A DNA stretch of 64,000 nt from an uncultured Clostridia bacterium. Lineage in GTDB: Bacteria; Bacillota; Clostridia; Oscillospirales; Ruminococcaceae. Shown here piece by piece: positions 56,063 to 61,712 of the stretch. The DNA is taken from the NCBI GenBank assembly GCA_947632025.1, contig CANRNN010000007.1:1-64000 (forward strand), given 5' to 3'. The notes under the pieces are model-generated. The model was given only the letters and a program-made list of their open reading frames with translations, searched no databases and was not told where the DNA came from. Position numbers and translations under genes: made by a program. Numbering within the stretch: position 1 is the first letter of the stretch; the number at the start of each line of letters is the position of its first letter.

Positions 56063-56692
56063 TCAAGTGAATTCTTTTCCGTTTTCGAGGAGGATTTTTG
56101 TTCTCATTATCTTAAGATGTGAAATACTCTCGCCTGTTTGCGTCTTGAACGCGTCGAGGACGAGCGTCGGATTTATGTTGAATTCGTTTCCTGCGGGCAG
56201 TCGGAGCGTTATCCTATCGGAAATTTCAACGAAAAGCAGATGCTGTTTCAAATCTACTTGTGTTATTCCTTTTTTGGTTTTTTTCTCGGTGAGGATCTGT
56301 TCCTGTTCTGTAAATTCGCGGAATTTTTTAAGATCCATATCTGCTGTGATCTCATATTCCGCAGCGGCTACATCGGTATTTTTATGCACAGGGACTGTAG
56401 TTTCTATCACCCGAATATCTTCGGGAAGCGCGGCGTTGAGCCTGTCTGTCACCTCACTGTGAGGAATTTCTTCAAGAAGCCGAAAATCCGCAGCTTCGCG
56501 AAGGCTCTCTTGTCCGAGCGACAGCGGCAGCATAAACTGAATGTACAGCCGCGGATTGAATCCCTCTGTGTACCACACCGGCAGCTTTGCACGCTTTATA
56601 GCCCGCTGCATTACGCCGCTCAAATCAAGGTGTGAGATATATTTCGCTCTGTCAAGTTTCGAGAAAAAAACTCTTGTATTAACCGATGGCAC
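56063..56692 (-). CDS. TIGR03936 family (DUF2344) radical-SAM-associated protein
   Basis: About 209 residues. The core FFSKLDRAKYISHLDLSGVM, followed by YTEGFNPR and LPLSLGQES, is typical of DUF2344 proteins, which stand next to or are fused with TIGR03960 radical-SAM enzymes. Proposed role: tRNA or rRNA modification, not settled. I favour the GTG start at 56692 (MPSVNTRVFF), with GGAGG about 11 bases upstream and a 14-base overlap with the radical-SAM gene; the longest open frame starts deeper in that gene. Confidence 0.88.
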   Translation of the reverse strand: MPSVNTRVFFSKLDRAKYISHLDLSGVMQRAIKRAKLPVWYTEGFNPRLYIQFMLPLSLGQESLREAADFRLLEEIPHSEVTDRLNAALPEDIRVIETTVPVHKNTDVAAAEYEITADMDLKKFREFTEQEQILTEKKTKKGITQVDLKQHLLFVEISDRITLRLPAGNEFNINPTLVLDAFKTQTGESISHLKIMRTKILLENGKEFT

Positions 56693-58544
56693 GGCAGATC
56701 TCACCTCCGATTTGCGAAGAAACTCCGCAGTTTGCGCACTTTTCACGGCAATTTTGTGTCGGTATGCCCTCGTGGGCTTTTTTGTTCTCGTTTATAAAAA
56801 ACTCCCTTGAAACAAGATAATTCATATGTGACCAAGGCGCTGTTTCATCATATCCGCGGCGGCGGTTGGCGTAGAATCCCATATCAAGACCGCACTCTGC
56901 GAACGCTTCCTTCCACTTTTCAAAATTGAAATATTCATCCCAACCGTCCAGAACGCAGCCCTTTTTCCAAGCAAGGTAAACCGCCTTTCCGACACGTCTG
57001 TCGCCCCTTGCAAGAACAGCCTCCAGAAGAGATACATCGTATTTCGAGCGCGAAAACGTTATCTTTCTGTCGGTCGCGTAATCCATCAAGAGCTTCTGAC
57101 GGCGCTTTATTTCTTCCTCGCCGAGCTGCGGCTCAAACTCAAACGGCGTGAACGGTTTGGGAATAAAGGTTGAAAGCGACACCGAAACCGACGGGGACTT
57201 TCCCTTTTTTCTGTCGTGATTAGCATAAAACTGCTCTACGACCGACTTTGCGAGGTCATAAATTCCGCGTATATCGTCGTCGGTTTCTGTCGGAAGTCCG
57301 AGCATAAAATACAGCTTCACAGCCGTATAGCCTCCCTCGAACGCTATCCTGACGCCGTCGAGGACGTTTTGTTCGGTTATATTCTTATTGATAACGTCGC
57401 GAAGTCTTTGAGTTCCCGCTTCCGGAGCAAAAGTAAGTCCGCTCTTGCGAACGTCGGTAATTTTCTGAAAGACCTCCTCGCTGAATCTGTCTATTCTGAG
57501 CGATGGCAGAGAAAGATTTATGCCGTTCTTTGAAGTGTACTCCGTAAGTCCCGAAAGCAGTCCTTCAATGTCCTTAAAGTCGCTTGTAGAAAGCGACGAC
57601 AGCGAAACCTCATCATATCCCGTGTTTTCACACAGGCACTTCGTCTGGGAGATTATCGTATCCTTACCCTTTTCGCGGAACGGACGGTAGATGAATCCCG
57701 CCTGACAGAATCTGCACCCGCGTATGCACCCGCGAAGCACTTCCACAACGGCGCGGTTATGCACAATATCGCAGAAAGGCACGACAAAATTTTCGGGAGC
57801 GTATACTTTATCAAAATCACGGATAACACGCTTTTTAACTGTTTTAGGAGCGCCGTTTTTAGCCGTTATTGTTTTCACCGTGCCGTCCTCGTTATAATCA
57901 ACATCATAAAATGACGGGACATATATGCCCTCGATCTTCGCGGCTTCCCTTAAAAACTCATCTTTTGTGGAATTATCTTTCTTACACTGCTCCATCAGTG
58001 CCATAAGCTCCAAATTTACTTCCTCGCCCTCTCCTATCACGAAAATATCGAAAAAGTCGCACAGGGGCTCGGCATTGCACACGCACGGTCCGCCACCCAC
58101 CACTATTGGCGTAAGCTCTTTTCTGTCCGATGCAAGCACGGGTACTCCACCAAGATCAAGCATTTCAAGTATAGTTGTGTAGCAAAGCTCGTACTGTATC
58201 GTGAACCCGATAAAATCAAACTCATTTATCGGATCAAGACTTTCGAGAGCGTAGAGCGGGATATTGCGCTTTCGCATCTGCTCCTCCATATCGGGCAGCG
58301 GCATAAAAACACGTTCGCACCAATAATTCGGGACTTTATTTTTCAGACCGTAGAGTATCTTCATTCCGAGGTGCGACATTCCGATCTCGTATGTATCCGG
58401 AAAGCAGAACGCGAATCTCACATCGACCTCGGACTTATCCTTCATAACCGACCCTGTTTCCCCGCCGATATATCGCGCAGGCTTTTGAATCTCCGGCAAA
58501 AACTCATCAAGTTTTTTCATCATCTCGCTGTTTTTGTAGAGCAT
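56679..58544 (-). CDS. TIGR03960 family radical-SAM protein
   Basis: A 621-residue enzyme with an N-terminal B12-binding-like domain (FCFPDTYEIGMSHLGMKILY; VGGGPCVCNAEPLCDFFD) and a radical-SAM core whose iron-sulfur motif is in RGCIRGCRFCQAGFIYRP (about residue 275). The C-terminal end has CREKCANCG, a further metal-type site. In Clostridia it is paired with DUF2344 and often precedes rng or the L21 gene. Those are not here; the operon ends at 56063. The ribosome site is AGGAG. Confidence 0.92.
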   Translation of the reverse strand: MLYKNSEMMKKLDEFLPEIQKPARYIGGETGSVMKDKSEVDVRFAFCFPDTYEIGMSHLGMKILYGLKNKVPNYWCERVFMPLPDMEEQMRKRNIPLYALESLDPINEFDFIGFTIQYELCYTTILEMLDLGGVPVLASDRKELTPIVVGGGPCVCNAEPLCDFFDIFVIGEGEEVNLELMALMEQCKKDNSTKDEFLREAAKIEGIYVPSFYDVDYNEDGTVKTITAKNGAPKTVKKRVIRDFDKVYAPENFVVPFCDIVHNRAVVEVLRGCIRGCRFCQAGFIYRPFREKGKDTIISQTKCLCENTGYDEVSLSSLSTSDFKDIEGLLSGLTEYTSKNGINLSLPSLRIDRFSEEVFQKITDVRKSGLTFAPEAGTQRLRDVINKNITEQNVLDGVRIAFEGGYTAVKLYFMLGLPTETDDDIRGIYDLAKSVVEQFYANHDRKKGKSPSVSVSLSTFIPKPFTPFEFEPQLGEEEIKRRQKLLMDYATDRKITFSRSKYDVSLLEAVLARGDRRVGKAVYLAWKKGCVLDGWDEYFNFEKWKEAFAECGLDMGFYANRRRGYDETAPWSHMNYLVSREFFINENKKAHEGIPTQNCREKCANCGVSSQIGGEICRAIG

Positions 58545-58607: not shown

Positions 58608-58626
58608 ATAGTATACTGTATACTAT
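58608..58626. promoter_or_regulatory. Perfect 19-base palindrome, possible operator
   Basis: ATAGTATAC-T-GTATACTAT, a 9-bp inverted repeat with one central base, lies 64 bases before the TIGR03960 start codon. The spacing and AT-rich symmetry fit a dimeric repressor site of the GntR type. No such repressor gene is nearby. Confidence 0.45.
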
Positions 58627-58634
58627 CACACGAC

Positions 58635-58776
58635 GGCGGGGCGGGCGCTCCCGCTTCGCGGGAGCAAGCCGTAAGCGCAGCAAAACGAGTTCCGTGCTTT
58701 TGCACGGAACTCAGCACCGTGAAACGGTGCCTGCGCTTACGGCTTGGATTTGCAAAGCAAATCCGCCCGCCCCGCC
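58635..58776. repeat. 142-base two-tier cloverleaf of perfect palindromes
   Basis: All helices are perfect. The outer 12 bp (58635-58646 with 58765-58776) enclose three arms: hairpin A GCTCCCGC-TTC-GCGGGAGC (58647-58665); a 15-bp helix (58666-58680 with 58731-58745) that itself carries hairpin B (11 bp, 58687-58712, TTTT loop) and hairpin C GCACCGT-GAA-ACGGTGC (58714-58730); and hairpin D GGATTTGC-AAA-GCAAATCC (58746-58764). Fewer than 25 bases are unpaired. It lies between ftsK and the TIGR03960 gene. It is far beyond a simple terminator and looks like nested small palindromic elements or a structured RNA/DNA element. Confidence 0.9.
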
Positions 58777-58808: not shown

Positions 58809-61712
58809 TCAACTCCTCAGGCGCTTTTCATTCCACTCCTGACGAGTCATAAGCACTTGTCTGGGCTTTGAACCCTCGTATGGACCTACCACGCCCATTT
58901 TCTCCATAGTGTCTATAAGTCGAGCCGCTCTGCCGTAACCGAGCTTCAAATGACGTTGAAGCGCGGAAGTGCTGGCTTGTCCGGCAGTCACCACAAAATC
59001 AATAGCTTCATCAAGCTTTTCGTCCGTGTCGCCGTCGTCAGCATCTTCGGAAACGCCCTTGTCGCCGGAGCTTACGTTCTCCGCTCTGCGTTCAATATCC
59101 TCCATAATGCCTTCATCATATTCCGCCTTGAATGTCTGTGTGATAAACTCGGCGACACGTTCGACTTCATCGTCGGAAACATAGCACCCCTGCAAACGTA
59201 TCGGTTTGGAGGTACCGACCGGCATATATATCATATCGCCGTTTCCGAGAAGTTTCTCCGCACCCGATTCATCAAGAATAACGCGGCTGTCTATCTGCGA
59301 CGCCACCATAAGCGCGATACGCGACGGGATATTTCCCTTGATAAGTCCGGTGACTACCTGCACAGTCGGCTTCTGCGTCGCAATAACCAGGTGCATTCCG
59401 GCAGCTCTGGCTTTCTGTGCCAGACGCACAATGCTGTCCTCCACATCTTTTGGAGATGCCATCATAAGGTCTGCAAGCTCGTCAATAAAGATCACTATCG
59501 ACGGCATTTTCTGCAATTCGTCATTTTGTTTGCACAGTTCGTTAAATCCGTCGATGTTCCGGACATTATTTTCCGAGAAAAGCGTATAGCGACGCTCCAT
59601 CTCGGTAACTGCCCAAGCGAGCGCTCCCGCTGCCTTTTTAGGGTCGGTGACTACGGGGATAAGAAGGTGCGGTATTCCGTTGTACATCATAAATTCAACC
59701 TGCTTAGGGTCGACCATTATAAGGCGAACGTCCGACGGCGTAGATTTCATAAGTATGCTCATTATAATGGAGTTTACGCAGACAGATTTACCCGAACCTG
59801 TAGTTCCCGCTATAAGCAGATGCGGCATTTTCGTGACGTTGCAGGTAACGGTATTGCCGCTTATATCTTTTCCGAGAACTGTGTCAAGCTTTTTGTCAAA
59901 GGTCCTTTTGAATTCGGGAGTATCTACAAGCTCGCGGAAAAACACGGTGTCCTTGATTTTGTTTGGTATCTCAACTCCAATTGCCGCCTTATCCGGAACG
60001 GGAGCGATCCTCACGTCACTTACCGCGAGCGCCAATGCGAGGTCGTCCGCAAGGCTTGCTATCCTGGCTATCTTTACTCCCGGAGCAGGCTGAAGCTCAT
60101 ATCGGGTCACGGAAGGTCCGCGGCTTGCGCCGATATAGGTCGTCTGTATCTTAAAGCTCTGCAAAGTTTCGACGAGCTTTGCAGCGTTGGAGCTTATCTC
60201 GCTGTTGATATCCGACTGTGCAACAGGTTTTCTGACGGGATTCAGCAGCGACATAGGCGGCAGTGTATAGACCTCCGAAAGCGTCGGCTGTTCGGGTTCG
60301 GCACGTTCGACTTTGACCTCGTTTAGCAAAACGATCCCTTTGTCGTGATCACCGTCATATTTCAACGGCTCTTGAAGTCTGCCCGAAGCGGAATCGGGAG
60401 CAATATCGTTTATATCGAACGGAAGCTCCGCCTCGTCGGTTTCGGATATGTCAGTTATCTCGTCGGGAATGTCGGATCCCGTTTCGGAAAGAGAATCAGA
60501 AGTAGCCTTGTCCTTTTCCGGAGCATCAATGATTTTTGACACTCTTGCGGGTAATTTCTCCGAATTCAGCTTTTCGAGCGCGTCTATTATAGGTACAAGC
60601 TCGATATCGTTATCCTCATATTTTTCAACAGGCTTCGGCTCGTCGCGCATAATGGGGTGGCGTTTTTCCATATAACGCTTAAGTGCCTGATGATAATCGC
60701 GGCTGTCTTGTGCCTGTTCTTCCAGAATTTCGGGCTTTTTGCCGCCGAGAAGCTCTATTCCACCATCGGATGGTGATTTTTCAATGGGCTTGGAATTATT
60801 TTCAGAAACCTTTTTCGGCTCATTTTTAGGTTTAACGGAAGGCGCGAGGCTCTCGGAGGTATCCTTAACGCTGTCAAACACAGCTTTCATTTCGTTGACC
60901 TTCTGACGCTCACGCTCGTTTTCGATGACACGCTGCTCGAATCGGCGCTGTTCCTCGATCTCTTTCTGACGGCGCTTTTCCTCTTTGATTCTGGCATATT
61001 CCGCGTTTGCCGCGGCGGATTCCTCGCGGCGGCGATCGTGATATTCCTTAGCGGTCGCGCCTGCGTTCTTTACTGCTCCGCCCATTTTCGAGAGCATTTC
61101 ATTAAGCGGCATATTTATCAAAAGAATTATGAATCCGAGTGCAAGTATTATAATAAGTATGGACGCTCCGAGTTTTCCGAGAAACAACAACGGAACTCCG
61201 AGAAAAAGAGCGAAAAATCCACCGCCCTTAAATGTTCGTCCGCCCTCGTAAAGATTTCCGGCAAGCTCGCCGAAATTCTCGCCGTTTACCTTTCCGACTG
61301 CAAAAATCTCCACTGCTGCGCAAAGCATAAGTATTATCATTACGATCTGGAACACCCTGAACGCTATGCCCCTTTTCGGCTCTTTTGCAGAAGTTATGAC
61401 CGCGATGTAAATAAGCGCAGGTCCGACAAGATACGCCGAGATGCCGAACAACCCGTGAACAACATTATAAAGTGCATTCCACCCCTCGCTGCCCGGAATT
61501 ATCGCAAGCAGAGTAAAAAAAGCTCCCAATATAAAAAGCACCACTGAGGATATCATTCTACGCTGTGCGCTTTTTCTCAGAGCTTCCTCGCGAAGCCGCT
61601 GCGCTTCAAGCTCCGCAGCCTTTTTCGAGCGCGGCTTGGTCGATGTCTGTCTTGTTTTCCCCGTATATCCCGAAGATGTTCTGCCTCCGGATGTTTTCTT
61701 TTTTTCTTCCAT
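58809..61712 (-). CDS. ftsK: DNA translocase FtsK/SpoIIIE
   Basis: A 967-residue septal DNA pump that moves chromosome ends through the closing septum. Four membrane helices lie in residues 50-215, then an acidic linker of about 250 residues. The motor domain has Walker A GTTGSGKSVCVNS (about 640) and Walker B IVIFIDELADLMMA (about 740). The gamma DNA-reading domain is at the end (LQRHLKLGYGRAARLIDTME). All motor residues are intact, unlike in the FtsK-like protein at 31885-35001. Upstream are uppP and a TepA-like gene. Confidence 0.97.
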   Translation of the reverse strand: MEEKKKTSGGRTSSGYTGKTRQTSTKPRSKKAAELEAQRLREEALRKSAQRRMISSVVLFILGAFFTLLAIIPGSEGWNALYNVVHGLFGISAYLVGPALIYIAVITSAKEPKRGIAFRVFQIVMIILMLCAAVEIFAVGKVNGENFGELAGNLYEGGRTFKGGGFFALFLGVPLLFLGKLGASILIIILALGFIILLINMPLNEMLSKMGGAVKNAGATAKEYHDRRREESAAANAEYARIKEEKRRQKEIEEQRRFEQRVIENERERQKVNEMKAVFDSVKDTSESLAPSVKPKNEPKKVSENNSKPIEKSPSDGGIELLGGKKPEILEEQAQDSRDYHQALKRYMEKRHPIMRDEPKPVEKYEDNDIELVPIIDALEKLNSEKLPARVSKIIDAPEKDKATSDSLSETGSDIPDEITDISETDEAELPFDINDIAPDSASGRLQEPLKYDGDHDKGIVLLNEVKVERAEPEQPTLSEVYTLPPMSLLNPVRKPVAQSDINSEISSNAAKLVETLQSFKIQTTYIGASRGPSVTRYELQPAPGVKIARIASLADDLALALAVSDVRIAPVPDKAAIGVEIPNKIKDTVFFRELVDTPEFKRTFDKKLDTVLGKDISGNTVTCNVTKMPHLLIAGTTGSGKSVCVNSIIMSILMKSTPSDVRLIMVDPKQVEFMMYNGIPHLLIPVVTDPKKAAGALAWAVTEMERRYTLFSENNVRNIDGFNELCKQNDELQKMPSIVIFIDELADLMMASPKDVEDSIVRLAQKARAAGMHLVIATQKPTVQVVTGLIKGNIPSRIALMVASQIDSRVILDESGAEKLLGNGDMIYMPVGTSKPIRLQGCYVSDDEVERVAEFITQTFKAEYDEGIMEDIERRAENVSSGDKGVSEDADDGDTDEKLDEAIDFVVTAGQASTSALQRHLKLGYGRAARLIDTMEKMGVVGPYEGSKPRQVLMTRQEWNEKRLRS

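Follow-up and report, generated by a model that had tools for sequence, protein, structure and literature searches.

A two-tier cloverleaf beside ftsK in an uncultured Clostridia bacterium, a candidate member of a dispersed family of multi-arm palindromic elements

Palindromic elements with one or two hairpins are known from organelle DNA. Going by the titles of two reports (PMC5910586, PMC7218506), these double-hairpin and palindromic elements are mobile palindromes and in this respect resemble the element described here, although they belong to another kind of genome. In bacteria, the REP, BIME and REPIN sequences associated with RAYTs are, in the available parts of PMC6006769, PMC3733652 and PMC2817692, short, dispersed, intergenic palindromes, sometimes clustered, that are thought to be moved in trans, and all of these features have a parallel here. 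REPs, as set out in the excerpted text of PMC6006769, are single hairpins of 20-40 bp that mostly carry a GT[AG]G foot, whereas here three to four perfect arms sit in a closing stem; no constant GTAG foot was seen on inspection of the element flanks. Bacterial MITEs are similar as well, being non-coding, short, dispersed and palindromic (PMC10969869, PMC2229807, both as excerpted). The inverted terminal repeat of AAV2 carries two arm orders inside a closing palindrome (PMC1131931, available portion), and we draw on it as an analogy rather than as a sign of membership: the present element is an internal, dispersed bacterial sequence and not a genome end, and it has no known Rep protein, nick site or replication starting from it. 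Finally, template switching between inverted repeats has been described as homogenising their arms and inverting the spacer between them (PMC8604942) and as able to create, perfect and maintain stems (PMC8794818); the accessible text of these two sources deals with single short inverted repeats and RNA stems, whereas here a dispersed element with many arms has been perfected at several levels, nested in one another. We found no published description of such elements in the open-licence literature, and a family of perfect multi-armed cloverleaf repeats in uncultured Clostridia is apparently undescribed.

The window is the whole stretch of DNA that was analysed, 64,000 nucleotides from an uncultured Clostridia bacterium of the Ruminococcaceae (assembly GCA_947632025.1, contig CANRNN010000007.1); its genome is labelled G000, and G009 and G025 are two sister genomes. 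Positions 58635-58776, between ftsK and a gene of the TIGR03960 family, form a two-tier cloverleaf of six perfect helices (12, 8, 15, 11, 7 and 8 bp). Its parts and neighbours are listed below, with the strand where one applies and the basis of each call in brackets.

58635-58776: two-tier cloverleaf, whole (RNA and DNA folds; copies elsewhere)
58635-58646: outer stem, left half, 12 bp, pairs with 58765-58776 (fold)
58647-58665: arm D, 8-bp hairpin GCTCCCGC-TTC-GCGGGAGC (fold; exact-arm search)
58666-58680: inner stem, left half, 15 bp, pairs with 58731-58745 (fold)
58681-58686, plus strand: six-base linker CAAAAC, which marks the orientation of the inner module (fold; comparison between species)
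58687-58712: large inner arm, 11 bp, loop TTTT (fold; counterpart arm in G009 and G025)
58714-58730: small inner arm, 7 bp, loop GAA (fold)
58731-58745: inner stem, right half (fold)
58746-58764: arm A, 8-bp hairpin GGATTTGC-AAA-GCAAATCC (fold; exact-arm search)
58765-58776: outer stem, right half (fold)
58809-61712, minus strand: ftsK, upstream neighbour, 967 aa (best NCBIfam match NF007615, DNA translocase FtsK, E 6.4e-132, under the curated cut-off of that profile)
56679-58544, minus strand: TIGR03960 family B12-binding radical SAM protein, downstream neighbour, 621 aa (profile match of 960.6 bits, exceeding the cut-off of 462.3)

The initial annotation had described this region as a cloverleaf of perfect helices with almost nothing unpaired, arms closed by short loops (TTC, GAA, AAA and TTTT) and a negligible probability of chance origin. 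Folding agreed on each point, with 20 of the 142 bases unpaired and all four loops present, except that the helices number six and not five as first counted. The same two-tier fold was predicted for the plus strand as RNA and for the minus strand as DNA, with a minimum free energy of -116.8 kcal/mol for 171 nt of RNA (z -13.4) and of -75.8 for the 142-nt minus strand of the element as DNA (z -16.2); none of 200 shuffles equalled either value. The cloverleaf was also the sole multi-arm structure in a structural scan of the whole window, one shuffled copy of which gave none. An intrinsic terminator was rejected, as the first reading of the locus had anticipated: no T-run lies 3' of the element on either side, and the single terminator-like pattern between 58500 and 58900 is internal, with the arm at 58687-58712 followed by TTTTGC on the minus strand, and fits only a loose pattern. 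An assembly artefact is unlikely, because two other genomes have an element of this kind in the corresponding position. An AT-rich palindrome, ATAGTATACTGTATACTAT (58608-58626; 9-bp arms around a one-base centre), adjoins the element upstream of the TIGR03960 gene and is absent from the ftsK-TIGR03960 intergenic regions of G009 and G025; it is possibly an operator.

When the element was compared with its own genome by BLAST, four more loci were recovered (C4:43524, C4:26085, C11:28051 and C2:73075-73233); 13 rows at E >= 0.014 were dropped, being matches of the element to itself, fragments of copies already counted, or short. Among 60 relatives, matches at E <= 0.001 occurred only in G009 and G025, and the copies in the three genomes share ~71-77% identity with the full length of the window copy. 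A covariance model built from six copies, R1, matched five loci in G000, three each in G009 and G025 and, weakly, one in G016 (E 0.003). The search of the genome and its relatives that the initial annotation had suggested uncovered a dispersed repeat. The outer-stem ends, GGGCGGGCG and CGCCCGCCC, retrieve other copies of this clade, with one mismatch in the copy L021. Further copies lie downstream of gyrA (L004) and upstream of dnaE (L003), and G009 and G025 have short one-tier copies that separate ychF from thiD, two genes in divergent orientation. One divergent two-tier copy in G000 (L006:1500-1661, contig C2) has three inner hairpins rather than two. The proposal that palindromic units had inserted into each other did not hold for the exact outer arms as free palindromes: exact arm A occurs at eight places in 43 genus genomes, all of them inside elements, and exact arm D also at eight, seven inside elements and the remaining one in G031, in searches that took exact arms only.

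ftsK adjoins the TIGR03960 gene in 21 of 30 loci read, and the element is present in three of these, namely the window copy, G009 (contig C29) and G025 (contig C74). The two genes are separated by ~1-78 nt in 16 of the 21 loci (some ends were extrapolated from the alignment) and by 429-432 nt of other sequence in G033 and G014; a structural scan of the 18 element-free loci found no multi-arm structure or cloverleaf. Since 18 of the 21 genomes lack it at that site, the element is an insertion there, which would most simply have occurred in an ancestor of the three sister species. The filled and empty flanks look, by inspection, too diverged to align. A second site, between plsY and gpsA, is filled in the same three species (L002, L022 and L023). 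The initial annotation would have been contradicted had relatives shown a unique sequence without pairing here, and no further copies anywhere; instead, the element has copies elsewhere, and in most relatives the site is empty. Dispersed copies combined with empty orthologous sites are the pattern of a MITE.

Two non-mobile explanations bear on this distribution. A host protein, such as a nucleoid, recombination or replication factor, could bind the element as a structured DNA site, and selection could keep it at certain loci. This would be consistent with two sites being filled in all three species, with neighbours that include ftsK, gyrA and dnaE, and with stem positions varying less than loops (G009 and G025 differ, over two sites, at 10 of 242 stem and 12 of 52 unpaired positions). 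Its absence from 18 of 21 genomes at the ftsK-TIGR03960 site and its patchy occurrence (17 of 43 genomes matched, one of them 88 times) make such a site improbable in our judgement. Alternatively, a chance hairpin could have been enlarged and perfected by repeated template switching without any dispersal, a process that, in the available text of the two sources, can create and perfect stems (PMC8794818) and invert spacers (PMC8604942). However, related arms, their order and the outer stem recur at unlinked loci in several species, and since a local process gives no sequence-related copies at new sites, this by-product is strongly disfavoured and we consider it very improbable.

The orientation of the inner module differs between species. 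At both shared sites it runs one way in G000 and the opposite way in G009 and G025: the window copy and L020 (G009) scored 31.5 inverted against 14.0 direct (best of 200 shuffles, 12.5), and the window copy and L021 scored 25.0 against 7.0 (11.5). At plsY-gpsA, L002 scored 37.0 inverted against 6.5 direct with L022 (best of 200 shuffles, 23.0) and 32.5 against 4.5 with L023 (25.5). The order of the outer arms relative to the genes is unchanged at the shared sites. We infer that the lack of strand preference among mismatches, detailed below, and these inversions are signatures of template switching; gene conversion with a different copy as donor, or separate insertions, could also have produced the inverted inner modules.

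With laxer filters, R1 also detected one-tier cloverleafs of ~80 nt in G036 (E 4e-4 to 0.05), G016 (0.003) and, weakly, G031 (0.9). Five one-tier copies were used to build a second model, R2, which at E <= 0.05 and with 109 candidates scored per genome matched 17 of 43 genus genomes, G000, G009 and G025 included, with 88 matches in G064 and 14 in G063; matches exceed loci, as a palindrome can match on both strands, and the source copies of R2 match by construction. The fetched copies mostly consist of a closing stem and three arms with short loops: arm A (AATTCGC-like), a GC-rich middle arm and arm D (GTTTTGCGC-like). Across copies the multi-arm structures span ~70-160 nt. From this architecture and from short similarities between arms, the two-tier and one-tier elements appear to be related, and in the window element the second tier would take the place of the middle arm of a three-arm cloverleaf. 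A smaller hairpin is nested at the tip of some arms (L189, L193, L195 and L203), which suggests that arms can grow by nesting.

Scans for structure recovered the same elements. In 1,264 kb scanned with an energy cut, three strong multi-arm structures were found, all of them already-known copies and two in stretches picked for hits (G036 C127 and G009 C2 are among such stretches), against none in shuffles; without the energy cut the same scan gave four real and five shuffled structures, and a stricter scan gave two real and no shuffled ones and missed the G009 copy. In 400 kb picked around hits in G064, G063 and G066 there were 26 multi-arm structures against none in shuffles, a density biased by the choice of stretches and by the double counting of four of the 15 G064 structures (L233 and L234 overlap). 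More widely, a search of 394 genomes of the order with R1 gave no match outside the window genome (two congeners were among the genomes listed; eight candidates scored per genome), and a third model, R3, matched G032 and G109 among 297 genomes of the family (ten candidates scored per genome). Such wide searches miss much, because R2 matches 17 genomes within the genus. G109, from another genus of the family, has a perfect three-arm cloverleaf (L224, ~855-955) with a closing stem of ~16 bp, so that the family would extend beyond the genus, to judge by a likeness in shape alone. Queries with one G063 composite and one arm pattern gave no match in the phages, plasmids and viral_contigs collections.

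These composites consist of a cloverleaf and a companion hairpin, which directly follows the cloverleaf in copies from G063, G066, G021, G014, G034, G031, G036, G016, G032 and G064. The hairpin is not part of every copy: by inspection it is missing from some copies, L191, L195 and L202 among them, and from the window clade. In 22 copies chosen for having it, GA faces GA in the internal loop of the hairpin in 20, the exceptions being L204, which ends at a contig end, and L203, in which the stem is shorter. In an alignment of eight sequences, the GA bases were constant in all eight, as was the U·G pair next to them, and many of the other pairs covaried; in G016 and G032 the U·G position reads G·G. 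Relative to the companion hairpin, the arms run A-middle-D in 10 of the 22 copies and D-middle-A in eight, with both orders within G036 (labels were assigned by a letter rule; L079 was unparsed and three copies were incompletely labelled). Two arm orders in a closing palindrome, the flip and flop of parvovirus-type terminal repeats, are therefore found here too, as a likeness in how the element works only.

In G064, cloverleafs are built into a unit of ~450 nt, composed of cloverleaf II, the G·A hairpin, a conserved middle and cloverleaf I (eight units aligned, two with an extra stretch); examples lie at L226:12545-12980 and in L228, L232 and L233. Within its middle, GATAAGG and CCCTTATC are candidates for a long-range pairing. 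The unit may be a large structured RNA; L177, which holds one, gave no Rfam match.

Since the initial annotation had left open whether this was an RNA or a DNA element, the mismatches tolerated in the helices are informative. When paired positions change in RNA, the common view is that they do so by way of a G-U intermediate (PMC8794818, as excerpted); read from the opposite DNA strand, that intermediate is A-C. Single helix mismatches in 11 cloverleafs of the window clade were three G·T, four A·C and one other, beside 614 Watson-Crick pairs, and in 18 composite cloverleafs one G·T, no A·C and nine others (five of them T·T), beside 639 pairs; summed, four G·T, four A·C and 10 others show no strand preference. 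Wobble pairs, when allowed, made up 7 of 621 pairs on this strand and 11 of 626 on the other in the clade cloverleafs, and 7 of 643 and 4 of 636 in the composite ones. In 19 G064 copies there was no helix mismatch among 587 Watson-Crick pairs, a perfection that is partly selected, as the pattern used to pick them required intact outer ends and arm A and D edges and left the middle arm free. That middle arm exists in three versions in the 19 distinct copies (10, 5 and 4 copies), fully paired but for an outermost T/T in two copies.

Paired changes themselves are frequent. In an alignment of six copies, A2, 28 of 60 pairs have double changes, with three wobble cells, and none of 500 shuffles reached as high a count; some of these changes reflect the alignment of arm A with arm D where the two are swapped, and pair types, at 32, were no more numerous than in shuffles (mean 35.0; 474 of 500 shuffles reached that count). 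Composites have double changes in 32 of 64 pairs. The earlier suggestion of a structured element kept by selection is thus borne out as far as a real and conserved structure goes.

A structured non-coding or cis-regulatory RNA between co-directional genes, kept for its RNA fold, would account for the very stable fold, the many compensatory changes, the co-directional ftsK and TIGR03960 genes and, in other species, the companion hairpin, with its constant U·G pair (8/8) and tandem G·A motif on one strand. Against it, the cloverleaf helices show no preference for G·T over A·C, the inner module and the arm order invert, short copies lie between the divergent ychF and thiD, and 22 type I copies in the examined G064 stretches split evenly into 11 with and 11 against the 5' ORF (simple ORF calls). 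Nor did an Rfam search reach a gathering score: the window site gave MIR820, bxd_4 and Leu_leader, and 16 loci gave Rubella_3 three times, all below it. We therefore regard such an RNA as unlikely, and a transcript-level role of the window copy is not supported here. Because mismatches have no strand bias, arms invert and the examined G064 copies have no orientation bias relative to 5' genes, the evidence for the cloverleaf favours upkeep at the DNA level over upkeep as RNA.

The companion hairpin behaves differently. Its single mismatches were 21 G·T, one A·C and four others, and wobble pairs, when allowed, made up 26 of 388 pairs on this strand against 11 of 361 on the other. As its motif is strand-specific, selection there acts on a folded single strand, which may be RNA. 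Compensatory change is usually taken as proof of RNA structure; here, the changes and flips of the cloverleaf are strand-symmetric and DNA-like and the adjoining hairpin is strand-specific, so that the two causes are separable within one element.

With moderate confidence, we interpret the window element as a copy of a dispersed, non-coding, MITE-like and non-autonomous palindromic element that inserted between ftsK and the TIGR03960 gene and is kept perfect at the DNA level. Unlike MITEs, the cloverleaf is paired over nearly its whole length and not at its ends alone. No shared terminal repeat or parental transposase came up (the transposase profile searched was PF01797), and no target-site duplication was seen in flanks that look too diverged to align. 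Movement of a REP/RAYT-type element by a Y1 (IS200-like) transposase would fit copies that are palindromic, intergenic where neighbours were identified and sometimes clustered in twos or more. RAYT systems use a Y1 transposase, however, and PF01797 was matched at the Pfam cut-off in nine of 43 genus genomes, with none in the copy-rich G064, G063, G036, G066, G024 and G016, nor in G009 and G025 (these eight genomes and G000 are 73-100% complete). Together with a multi-arm cloverleaf in place of one hairpin, this leaves a REP/RAYT-type origin extremely doubtful. A Y1 transposase was rejected as the mover on the same absence from copy-rich genomes and on the stop-containing state of the only match in G000. 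That match, to an IS200-like Y1 transposase (PF01797, E 3.7e-32), lies at 530-913 of the window, with a TAA inside it.

For the MITE-like element, dispersal follows from the copy number and the empty sites, and a trans-acting enzyme, probably working on the folded single strand, would be what disperses it. During replication, the inverted repeats would promote template switching, by which one stem half is copied into the other and which would occasionally invert the sequence between the two halves; the pattern is observed and the process is our proposal. Such switching would keep the helices nearly perfect and flip the arms. Current mobility in G000, G009 and G025 is unproven, because the copies are ~71-77% identical and two sites are common to the three species; the window copy is probably a mere spacer for the neighbouring genes. 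A bolder proposal, which we regard as speculative and improbable, would see here a mobile DNA of a new class in bacteria. Its unit would be a multi-arm cloverleaf of single-stranded DNA, to which many species attach the G·A/U·G recognition hairpin. By analogy with parvovirus terminal repeats, a putative enzyme would copy it by hairpin-primed or fold-back synthesis, each cycle of replication or transposition re-perfecting the helices and flipping the arms. Under either reading, the family would add a dispersed multi-arm palindrome to the Clostridia.

A tRNA-like cloverleaf was also rejected, as ARAGORN found no tRNA in 15 element loci and, in the window, only a tRNA-Thr at 1132-1207. Close to this intact gene, a partial second copy of the tRNA-Thr region at ~1327-1402 is broken by GGGATTTGCGAAGCATATCCC (1353-1373), a sequence similar to arm A in a degenerate hairpin form.
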